Shown in pieces: positions 2 to 48,231 of a stretch of 51,753 nt of DNA (its first letter is position 1; each line of letters begins with the position of its first letter). The notes under the pieces are model-generated. The model was given only the letters and a program-made list of their open reading frames with translations, ran no database searches and was not told the origin of the DNA. A program made the translations under genes and the position numbers. The stretch is from Pseudohongiella sp. (GTDB taxonomy: Bacteria; Pseudomonadota; Gammaproteobacteria; Pseudomonadales; Pseudohongiellaceae): positions 1 through 51,753 of the forward strand of contig JAUSCD010000032.1 of NCBI GenBank assembly GCA_030651695.1, read 5' to 3'.

Positions 2-184
2 GCAACGGGAGCGGGTCGCCGCACCGGACCGGCCGCATCCTTTAACGGGGCGCCCGGCGTTGCGGAACTCGCCCTCGCGCGCTTCGCGGGCTCGGAGCTC
101 AGACAGTCCTCACGCTTTTTCGGGCGCCCCGTTAAAGGATAAGCGCGGCCTGATTGGTCCGGTGCGGCGACCCGCTCCCGTTGC
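2..184 (-). repeat. Nested-hairpin repeat element A (183 bp)
   Basis: This is a long two-level palindrome. The outer arms 2-30 and 156-184 are perfect 29-bp reverse complements. The inner arms 37-56 and 121-140 are perfect 20-bp reverse complements. A further 6 bp (31-36 with 145-150) pair between them, leaving asymmetric unpaired pieces at 141-144 and 151-155 and a 64-nt centre at 57-120 that holds a small GC-rich hairpin. It shares length and layout with element B at 927-1109, in inverted orientation. I assigned the minus strand because the G-U-compatible pairs of element B favour the matching strand. Function is unknown. It could be a mobile DNA hairpin or a structured RNA. It is not coding, although an open frame runs through it. 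Confidence 0.85.
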
Positions 185-257
185 TCACTCCGGATTTGGC
201 TTTTGTGTCGGGAATATTCTGTTTGTTTTTTCGTTGCTGGTTGGAGGTTTTTGCACC

Positions 258-845
258 ATGAGTAAACGTATTCTGCTTATACAGGGTCATCCGGATGTTG
301 CTGCACCTCACCTGAACCATGCATTGGCGGATGCTTATGCCAATGGAGCCAAGGCTGCAGGTCATGAGGTTCGTATTGTTAATGTGAGTGCTTTGGACTT
401 TCCGATGCTGCGTTCGCAGCAGGATTGGGAACACGGAGAAGTGCCCCCGACACTTAAGGACGCTCAGGATGACATCCTGTGGGCTGAGCATCTGGTGGTG
501 TTTTTCCCCTTGTGGCTGGGCGGCATGCCTGCTGTGTTGAGAGCTTTTCTCGAGCAAGTGCTGCGCCCTGGTTTTGCGTTCAACTATTCCAAAAGCAACC
601 CGATGGGCGTCAAAGGCTTAAAGGGCAGGAGCGCCAGAGTGGTGGTAACGATGGGTATGCCGTCATTGTTCTACAAGTGGTTTTTCCGCGCTCACAGCCT
701 GAAGGCGCTGAAACGCAACATTCTGGGTTTTGTCGGCATCGCGCCCATCCGTCAGACGGTGATCGGCATGAGCGCGAACCTGAAGCCAGCAGACGTCGAG
801 AAGCTCGAAAGCATGATGCAAAAGCTCGGTCGCGCAGGTCAATAA
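258..845 (+). CDS. NAD(P)H-dependent flavodoxin-fold oxidoreductase
   Basis: This 195-residue protein has the flavodoxin-like fold of the NAD(P)H quinone reductase/KefF family, which binds FMN or FAD and reduces quinones or other acceptors in the cytoplasm. The N-terminal strand MSKRILLIQGHPD and the segment FPLWLGGMPAVLRAFLEQV followed by GFAF are typical of the family. I chose ATG 258 because GGAGG lies at 243-247; the reading frame stays open further upstream to position 60, but that part lies inside a palindromic repeat. The gene stands alone between inverted elements A and B and is not part of the trp operon that follows. That arrangement suggests an accessory passenger, but this is inference. 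The physiological substrate cannot be read from the sequence. Confidence 0.85.
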   Translation: MSKRILLIQGHPDVAAPHLNHALADAYANGAKAAGHEVRIVNVSALDFPMLRSQQDWEHGEVPPTLKDAQDDILWAEHLVVFFPLWLGGMPAVLRAFLEQVLRPGFAFNYSKSNPMGVKGLKGRSARVVVTMGMPSLFYKWFFRAHSLKALKRNILGFVGIAPIRQTVIGMSANLKPADVEKLESMMQKLGRAGQ

Positions 846-926
846 GAAAGAGGTCAGTAAGCGCAGGTCAGTACAAAAGCAGCGTTATTTCCCAACCAGA
901 AAGAATCCACAAGTCTCCGGGTTACG

Positions 927-1109
927 GCAACGGGTAGCGTACTGCAGTGCCGGACCAATCAGGTCGCGCTTATCCTCTGAGGGGGCGTCCGAAAAAGCGG
1001 TAGGACTGTTCGAGTCCGGAGCGGCGCAGCCGCGACGTCGAGTTCCGCACCGCCGGGCGCCCCCTCAGAGGATGCGGCCGGTCCGGCACTGCAGTACGCT
1101 ACCCGTTGC
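927..1109 (+). repeat. Nested-hairpin repeat element B (183 bp)
   Basis: This is the second copy of the element-A family, inverted relative to A. The outer arms 927-956 and 1080-1109 are perfect 30-bp complements. The inner arms 972-991 and 1054-1073 pair at 20 positions with one T-G wobble (988 with 1057). A 6-bp stem (962-967 with 1074-1079) has another T-G wobble. Both wobbles would be allowed in a plus-strand RNA and would be A-C mismatches in the minus strand. Against A, the unpaired segments are nearly identical (AATCAGGTCGCGCTT against AATCAGGCCGCGCTT; AAAAAGCG; CGAGTTCCGCA), while about eight outer and three inner stem pairs differ and remain paired. Confidence 0.85.
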
Positions 1110-1163
1110 ACACTCCGGATAAACCACTACCACGCTCTACCCGTTGCACACTCCGGATAAACC
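1099..1163. repeat. 27-bp direct repeat at the edge of element B
   Basis: Positions 1099-1125 and 1137-1163 are identical 27-mers separated by 11 bp. The repeat begins in the last bases of the outer stem of element B (CTACCCGTTGC) and runs through its flank (ACACTCCGGATAAACC). It is therefore a duplicated element edge rather than an unrelated repeat. The remaining stretch from 846 to 926 and from 1164 to 1278 has no gene I can support; only the trpF leader follows. Confidence 0.85.
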
Positions 1164-47888: not shown

Positions 47889-47964
47889 GCGGGTGTAGCT
47901 CAGTTGGTAGAGCGCGACCTTGCCAAGGTCGAGGTCACGAGTTCGAGCCTCGTTACCCGCTCCA
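47889..47964 (+). tRNA. tRNA-Gly (GCC)
   Basis: A cloverleaf folds with acceptor GCGGGTG/TACCCGC, D-arm GCTCAGTTGGTAGAGC, anticodon loop TTGCCAA (GCC), and T-loop GTTCGAGCC. The 3' CCA is encoded. Confidence 0.97.
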
Positions 47965-48026
47965 ATATCAGGCCTCAGGCCAGTCCGGGTAACTACCTGT
48001 CTGCCAGGTAGGTTTGGATCAGTACA

Positions 48027-48100
48027 GGCTGGGTGGCAGAGTGGTCATGCAGCGGACTGCAACTCCGTGTACGCCGGTTCGATTCCGACCTCAGCCTCCA
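48027..48100 (+). tRNA. tRNA-Cys (GCA)
   Basis: The acceptor is GGCTGGG/CTCAGCC, the anticodon loop is CTGCAAC (GCA), and the T-arm GGTTCGATTCC is present with an encoded CCA. The gap from tRNA-Gly is 62 bp. Confidence 0.95.
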
Positions 48101-48144
48101 AAATCCAAACAGTGATCCTGTCTGCTCGTGGTCAAGATTTTTAA

Positions 48145-48231
48145 GCCCGGGTGGTGAAACAGGTAGACACAAGGGACTTAAAATCCCTCGGCAGAAATGC
48201 CGTACCGGTTCGATTCCGGTCCCGGGCACCA
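48145..48231 (+). tRNA. tRNA-Leu (TAA)
   Basis: An 87-nt class II tRNA has acceptor GCCCGGG/CCCGGGC, anticodon loop CTTAAAA (TAA), a long variable arm (CGGCAGAAATGCCG) and T-arm CGGTTCGATTCCGG with CCA. Its 3' end is next to an integrase gene, so it is the likely attachment site of an island. Confidence 0.97.
48203..48231 (+). other. Putative attL at the 3' end of tRNA-Leu
   Basis: Tyrosine recombinases of the P4 type usually use the T-arm to CCA part of a tRNA as the core. The integrase gene starts 167 bp downstream in the same direction. The second copy of the core (attR) is outside the window, so the exact core cannot be defined. Confidence 0.45.

Follow-up and report, generated by a model that had tools for sequence, protein, structure and literature searches.

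The window analysed here is a stretch of 51,753 nucleotides (nt) from the marine bacterium Pseudohongiella sp. (GenBank assembly GCA_030651695.1, contig JAUSCD010000032.1). Contig C1 ends at window position 1, and a long hairpin, element A (2-184), lies there. A second hairpin, element B (927-1109), is found on the other side of a flavodoxin-domain gene. Each element is 183 nt in length, or approximately 215 nt when the tags are counted. The features are listed below; strands are the inferred folded (functional) strands for A and B, and bit scores are those of the covariance model R1.

2..184, minus strand: element A; R1 174.3 bits on minus, 46.1 on plus; DNA folding
2..30, minus strand: A outer stem, 3' arm, pairs with 156-184
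61..107, minus strand: A conserved apical core, ACTGTYYGAG..GAGTTSCGCA; alignment and core pattern search
121..140, minus strand: A inner stem, 5' arm, partner 37-56, 20 bp, 100%
151..155, minus strand: A conserved 5-nt bulge AATCA; sequence and alignment
156..184, minus strand: A outer stem, 5' arm on the folded strand, partner 2-30, 29 bp, 100% complementary
185..195, minus strand: A 5' tag adjoining the stem, ATCCGGAGTGA on the folded strand; sequence
258..845, plus strand: Flavodoxin_2 gene between A and B; open reading frame and domain match
927..1109, plus strand: element B; R1 178.5 bits on plus, 40.2 on minus; DNA folding
927..956, plus strand: B outer stem, 5' arm, partner 1080-1109, 30 bp, 100%
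957..961, plus strand: B conserved 5-nt bulge AATCA; sequence and alignment
972..991, plus strand: B inner stem, 5' arm, partner 1054-1073, 20 bp, 95%, single T-G pair
1005..1049, plus strand: B conserved apical core; alignment and core pattern search
1110..1120, minus strand: tag-like ATCCGGAGTGT 3' of B, not on the strand on which B folds; sequence

The longest flavodoxin reading frame (60-845) begins within A, and automatic annotation could stretch the gene into the element. A 27-nt perfect direct repeat (1099-1125 and 1137-1163, starts 38 nt apart) comprises the end of B and its flank; similar end duplications also follow L107:6649-6830 and L131:1012-1216. Further along the window, three consecutive tRNA genes were present on the plus strand (47889-48228).

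The original prediction described an inverted pair of nested hairpins, which is how A and B lie, and the positions and lengths of the stems (outer 29 and 30 bp, inner 20 bp each) were confirmed. Its statement that each copy is perfectly paired was correct for A and for both outer stems (100%), but not for the inner stem of B, which is 95% paired with one T-G pair on the plus strand. The 15-nt asymmetric unpaired segment that it reported was indeed conserved, but was found to be interrupted by six base pairs (GGYCGC with GCGGCC), which separate a bulge AATCA from a bulge GCTT. When the single strands were folded with DNA parameters, A reached -91.2 kcal/mol (z = -13.3) and B -85.8 kcal/mol (z = -14.7); in neither case was any of 200 shuffled sequences as low. 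The folding of both elements is far beyond chance.

A BLASTN search of the source genome with A returned 37 rows, representing 29 distinct places, some of them partial. Contigs C1, C6, C15, C23, C24 and C29 start or finish at or near a copy. BLASTN matches were obtained in 16 of 56 genomes, including the source genome, and a 20-letter pattern searched in named genomes was found in 18 stretches, all of which belonged to Pseudohongiella assemblies or unclassified Gammaproteobacteria (e.g. LSUCC0112). Copies were taken from the source genome and 11 congeners; 82 of 92 were kept after removal of near-identical copies and those cut by locus ends, and 81 of the 82 were aligned and folded. The alignment contained 22 invariant columns, and 95.5% of its stem cells were paired, compared with 70.4 ± 0.4 over 500 shuffles. 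Change on both sides was observed for 47 of the 55 base pairs, with a covariation score of 0.644 (0.164 in shuffles, at most 0.114 in slid controls). The stem differences among the further copies were therefore compensated, and the earlier reading that the fold is kept rather than the stem sequence, whether by selection or by copying, was supported.

The covariance model search that had been suggested as a check was carried out with R1, which was built from the 81 copies. Matches were found in all 15 Pseudohongiella genomes (source genome included; 5 to 45 matches per genome) and in one of 13 others, G037; these counts may include weak mirror matches from the opposite strand. Genome G013, which was empty by BLASTN and absent from the alignment, gave 45 matches, each of at least 77 bits, and since these copies had been seen by neither method they confirmed the model independently. 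Outside the genus, R1 scored 130 bits in G037 (different family) and 74 bits in G021 (different genus). As regards the remark that the repeat was not recognised as a named one, only three tRNAs passed the Rfam gathering threshold in the window. The best Rfam match at A and B was isrG, which at 21.3 bits fell well short of its threshold of 100 and did not lie on the strand on which B folds, and nothing exceeded its gathering score in the loci of six relatives searched in E-value mode.

Several individual copies were unusual. At L057:5395-5483 the whole apical part was gone, with the outer stem and AATCA bulge retained. The copy at L052:9269-9520, near a contig end, continued into a perfect palindrome with arms of 60 bp or more, which is probably an assembly fold-back. 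One outer stem was common to three copies in the source genome, two of them at contig ends (the end of C23 and the start of C6); these ends probably adjoin, and their two copies could be one. At the start of C6 (L046:1-1740), a segment of about 1.4 kb with two open reading frames lies between two same-direction copies that have one outer stem in common. In G001 the counterparts of the C23 end and of C6 from 1755 are just 80 bp or so apart, and the segment may thus be an insertion with a copy at either end.

Imperfect stem pairs were unevenly distributed between the strands. The main count omitted 16 of 92 copies from the outer stem (fewer than 20 paired positions) and 6 of 92 from the inner stem (fewer than 13). 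On the gene-side strand there were 65 A-C and 18 G-T pairs in the outer stem, and 49 A-C and 10 G-T pairs in the inner stem. Read on the folded strand, the same pairs gave G-T to A-C ratios of 65:18 and 49:10, or 114:28 together (binomial p ~2e-7 for the outer and ~3e-7 for the inner stem, from copies that are related and so not independent). In G013, 34 distinct copies (among 44 aligned rows, out of 45 matches) had 84 G-U, 8 A-C, 34 other and 1635 Watson-Crick pairs, and all 55 model pairs of 129 copies gave 269 G-U, 45 A-C, 169 other and 6460 Watson-Crick pairs; both counts used model-fitted alignments, which favour G-U somewhat. Because the bias to G-T or G-U lies on one strand, that strand would be the working form, and we infer that the fold belongs to the minus strand in A and to the plus strand in B. 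A strand-biased mutation process could also produce such a bias. This strand restriction is a new finding beyond the two hairpins first noted, as are the gene-end placement, the core held in common with other Gammaproteobacteria and the signs of copying and recombination described below. The copies constitute a real, strongly covarying, strand-specific family, of which no description was found among the papers listed for the core sequence, repeat terms, Pseudohongiella and REPINs.

Apical loops were counted in the related copies in which the core was found (103 of 112 in the main set, 34 of 34 in G013). GNA accounted for 25 of the 56 distinct triloops, and all 41 GNA triloops among the 83 counted with repeats were closed by C-G. 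The remaining 20 of the 103 loops in the main set were not triloops; they included 10 tetraloops, of which three were GNNA, all of these being GNRA. Tetraloops in G013 were GNNA in 23 of 24 cases and GNRA in just one. As DNA, d(GNNA) tetraloops are stable too. Together with the dimers, bulges and tags, the GNA and GNNA loops lead us to lean, modestly and by judgement, to single-stranded DNA rather than RNA as the folded form. Passages of PMC5815330 treat d(GNA) triloops closed by C-G as stable.

Gene context was assessed for 129 model matches in fetched stretches, using open reading frames of at least 90 codons rather than a gene finder. In the gene-side orientation, the upstream reading frame was on the same strand in 98 of the 129 copies, on the opposite strand in 29 and absent in two; 90 of the 98 same-strand copies lay within 150 nt past the end of the reading frame (median 49.5). 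The corresponding figures in G013 were 23 of 30 on the same strand and seven on the opposite strand. Since 69 of the 129 copies reside between convergent genes, the same-strand excess owes much to that residence. A tail-repeat-tail bias is known for other repeats, those of P. fluorescens, and the relevant part of PMC2718517 explains it as the least harmful place. Orientation proper was evidenced by close neighbours: copies less than 500 bp apart were convergent in 27 of 27 cases, and in G013 in seven of eight, with one same-direction pair, on C26. Where a single copy lay between convergent genes, it was nearer to the same-strand gene in 26 of 36 cases (p = 0.011), and there was no orientation bias between co-directional genes (25 versus 20, p = 0.55). 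Element B breaks the upstream rule, with its core opposite to its neighbours and its tag on the other side, and it may conceivably have been flipped within its flanks. Flips called from tags alone were at chance level (2 of 112, versus 6 of 326 in shifted controls), and only an aligned inversion was counted as such.

Where recognisable, the 5' tags were lineage-specific and of the GGCACAAG or CGGAGTGA type; the tag seen at A, ATCCGGAGTGA, was common in the source genome and its close relatives. A 5'-side tag was clear in 47 of 112 copies, with two flipped, two carrying both and 61 unclear. These tag counts, like those for flanks and shared sites, used a 112-copy motif list with a few false places (e.g. 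L127:1596-1777). The tags were also considered as a common empty target and this was rejected, as the pattern GGCACAAGN{0,8}CCGCTC occurred at one place in seven genomes, which is chance-like. A remnant in G010 is one letter off the exact pattern and so escapes it.

Many element sites were common to different species, with flanks there 70-97% identical and the loops intact; the site of B is also occupied by a copy in G001 and in G002. In 49 shared-site pairs, which are not independent, 356 stem pairs had changed on both sides and remained paired and 121 had changed on one side and remained paired, with 1055 unchanged; 89 two-sided and 192 one-sided changes were broken, classes that are inflated by small indels. 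The same-site copies L051 and L112 differed by 17 two-sided changes and one one-sided change. The apical subclass also differed among some same-site copies, which we read as exchange between copies or re-insertion. One inversion in place was clear: L107:3828-4008 aligned with L131:3849-4029 on the plus strand at 81%, and the surrounding 2 kb aligned on the minus strand at 79%. The comparison of L145 with L131 showed the same inversion, with the element at 88%. In the near relatives G008 and G010, a filled and empty pair, the element was precisely absent from one with both tags left behind, a difference that reads as loss of the element. This was the best filled and empty pair, and no insertion with target duplication was found. 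A candidate clean empty site at C21:438411 was rejected; both flanks were present in nine congeners, eight of them readable (G006 is masked there), and all of the readable ones were without the big element and several had other hairpins.

In G009, eight of the 14 copies displayed had inverted GGGGACGGAGG-type repeats on both sides, resembling the repeats that surround the gene for a Y1 protein of about 250 amino acids (aa), and these repeats may have carried the copies along. The bracketed copies, at L087, L088, L089, L090, L092 and L094, appear as if captured by a REP pair. The stem start GCGTCTTGGTGG was common to five G009 copies at distinct places.

A Y1_Tnp match was present in all 15 genomes of the genus. 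The source genome encodes two Y1 proteins: one of 248 aa, which scored 77.1 bits, just below the NCBIfam REP-transposase cut-off of 80, and one of 323 aa, which has a Y1 domain and a DnaA C-terminal domain. Two types occur in the genus. The type of about 250 aa has GGGGACGGAGG repeats of its own. The type of about 330 aa was also found in G015 and G016, which belong to genera where R1 finds nothing. Y1 REP-transposases were rejected as a linked partner, as the element was absent from all 20 Y1 loci examined, of which 17 came from the genus (two of these 17 being one place).

The element was compared with known systems. Integron attC sites are conserved in structure over sequence, fold on the bottom strand and sit just after a stop codon. 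The likeness is one of analogy in structure conservation, strand-specific folding and gene-end position; attC sites lie in a cassette array with an integrase, whereas the copies here are longer and are scattered singly or in convergent pairs. MITEs have terminal inverted repeats in common with an insertion sequence, and a target duplication; the outer arms here are inverted repeats but copy-specific, and the G008/G010 pair reads as loss. The intergenic repeats of P. fluorescens (R0, R2, R6 and others) are likewise hairpin-forming inverted repeats with a tail-repeat-tail bias; the portions of PMC2718517 consulted describe identical inverted repeats around a variable core, and do not describe covarying stems or a strand-specific core. 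REP, REPIN and BIME sequences with TnpA-REP (RAYT) share with the element a dispersed intergenic palindrome, a bulged strand-specific fold, a 5' tag and head-to-head dimers, as set out in parts of PMC8266576 and PMC3733652, and passages of the latter describe such dimers as predominant among REPs. The strand-specific fold is seen here in the wobble bias and the conserved bulges, and the dimers in the convergent close neighbours. In contrast, a REP palindrome is approximately 20-40 nt with a stem of 5-13 bp, compared with 183-215 nt and stems of 29-30 bp (outer) and 20 bp (inner) here, and lacks the two long, freely changing stems and the conserved apical core. The REP tag is GTAG or CGTC, which was absent from the element flank consensus, and GTAG-type REPs often flank their own Y1 transposase gene. 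By analogy the element would be most like REP in its working, yet it differs in size, in tag and in having no linked transposase.

Conserved loops, on stems that are free in sequence but paired on one strand, suggest that the element works as folded single-stranded DNA or RNA. By analogy, we tentatively favour a giant REP-like element whose folded form is single-stranded DNA and on which a putative Y1/HUH-type enzyme acts. The strand would fold when exposed as single-stranded DNA, and its bulges, apical core and 5' tag would be recognised by that enzyme, a strand-specific nuclease-transposase, which would confer mobility. The stems would need pairing only, so that their sequence could drift freely, and stem change may be accelerated when one arm is copied onto the other or when copies exchange sequence. 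The wobble bias, the covariation, the C-G-closed GNA loops and the GNNA loops of G013 are consistent with this explanation, as are the convergent neighbours, which resemble REP dimers, the lineage tags, the G009 brackets, the GCGTCTTGGTGG stems and the genus-wide Y1_Tnp. Against it stand the absence of the element from the 20 Y1 loci, the lack of a GTAG or CGTC tag, the best filled and empty pair, which reads as loss and not as insertion with target duplication, the Y1 proteins of G015 and G016 without the element, the same-direction pair in G013, and the mixed loop lengths and GNRA tetraloops of the main set. Furthermore, wobble bias is expected in RNA too, and loops that are intact at shared sites fit a host function better than a purely selfish copy. 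A serious rival to the single-stranded DNA reading, if itself a doubtful one, is a structured RNA. Transcription of the folded strand would then start in the convergent gene or at a promoter of the element and run antisense to the adjacent gene, and the RNA would act at gene ends, perhaps by keeping antisense transcripts out of the neighbouring gene, or as an element of the 3' end or of an RNP. It would account for the excess of G-U over A-C on one strand, the upstream reading frames (98 of 129 on the same strand, 90 of the 98 ending within 150 nt, median 49.5), the tendency of single copies between convergent genes to fold on the antisense strand of the nearer gene (26 of 36, p = 0.011) and the loops retained at shared sites. 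It is less easily reconciled with the lack of orientation bias between co-directional genes (25 versus 20, p = 0.55), with G013 loops that are GNNA but not GNRA, and with in-place inversion, which would disturb a strand-dependent cis role. Nothing at A or B reached an Rfam threshold, no terminator-like site was found at A or B, and the one promoter found (0.4 expected) was within the flavodoxin gene.

That there is no selection on the fold, with template switching or gene conversion copying arm onto arm in an otherwise inert family, appears improbable. Two-sided paired changes did outnumber one-sided ones at shared sites (356 versus 121, and 17 versus 1 for L051/L112), apical subclasses differ between same-site copies, and a hairpin inverted in place is what arm recombination would yield. 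However, arm copying predicts no strand bias in wobble pairs, unless mutation itself is strand-biased; ratios of 114:28 and 84:8 were observed. It also leaves unexplained both the loops conserved over 81 copies (22 invariant columns) and the shared tags; strand bias and loop conservation speak against it as the sole process. If the copies were simply terminators of convergent genes, intrinsic or of another plain hairpin type, this would suit their placement behind stop codons, with 69 of 129 lying between convergent genes, and other hairpins occupy the same place in relatives. Such terminators are nevertheless a very improbable explanation, as no GC stem followed by a T-run was found at A or B, terminators do not have a conserved centre of some 60 nt or a pair of conserved bulges, and the wobble bias indicates the strand antisense to the adjacent gene. 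Returning to the single-stranded DNA reading, the element could, somewhat speculatively, represent a new class of genome-resident single-stranded-DNA hairpin replicator, present throughout the genus at 5 to 45 matches per genome. Its loops and tag would be recognised, and its stems would be free to change for as long as folding on one strand is kept. The arms would correct each other, modules would be swapped and copies inverted in place, and a putative strand-specific enzyme would serve the element, whose apical core would be one used by a wider gammaproteobacterial repeat group.

Shared sites at which the loops are held, and the stems are little constrained in sequence, in several species amount to a natural experiment; because stems evolve while loops are held at the same sites, selection on folding is separable from arm-to-arm copying. 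The strand bias makes an anonymous palindrome into a testable claim as to which strand works, and in which form. One apical core ties together several gammaproteobacterial repeat types, and raises the question of the enzyme or partner that reads it.

At class level, R1 matched eight of 369 Gammaproteobacteria and the core pattern 12 of 369, the source genome being included in both; reversed-pattern controls gave zero among the genomes listed. In the other Gammaproteobacteria examined, the core, of the form GCGAGGACTGTCTGAGC-hairpin-GCGAGTTCCGCAGC, was on long copy-specific stems, often followed by a GGTTACTTTT-type hairpin, which is common in this class. The AATCA and GCTT bulges were not seen in the copies of this repeat that were examined. 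Plasmid and phage collections were rejected as the home of the core, as they gave chance-like matches only; an Ilyobacter plasmid had four weak core places and one viral contig had two core copies. A smaller hairpin family, of about 82 nt in G002, carries GAAC-AATCA-GGCGC..GCGCC-GTTC within a copy-specific stem. It has the AATCA bulge, occupies the same gene-end places and sometimes adjoins the big element, with at most 12 pattern matches per congener; examples are at L206:4078-4159, L166, L169, L171 and G000:C29:172-188.
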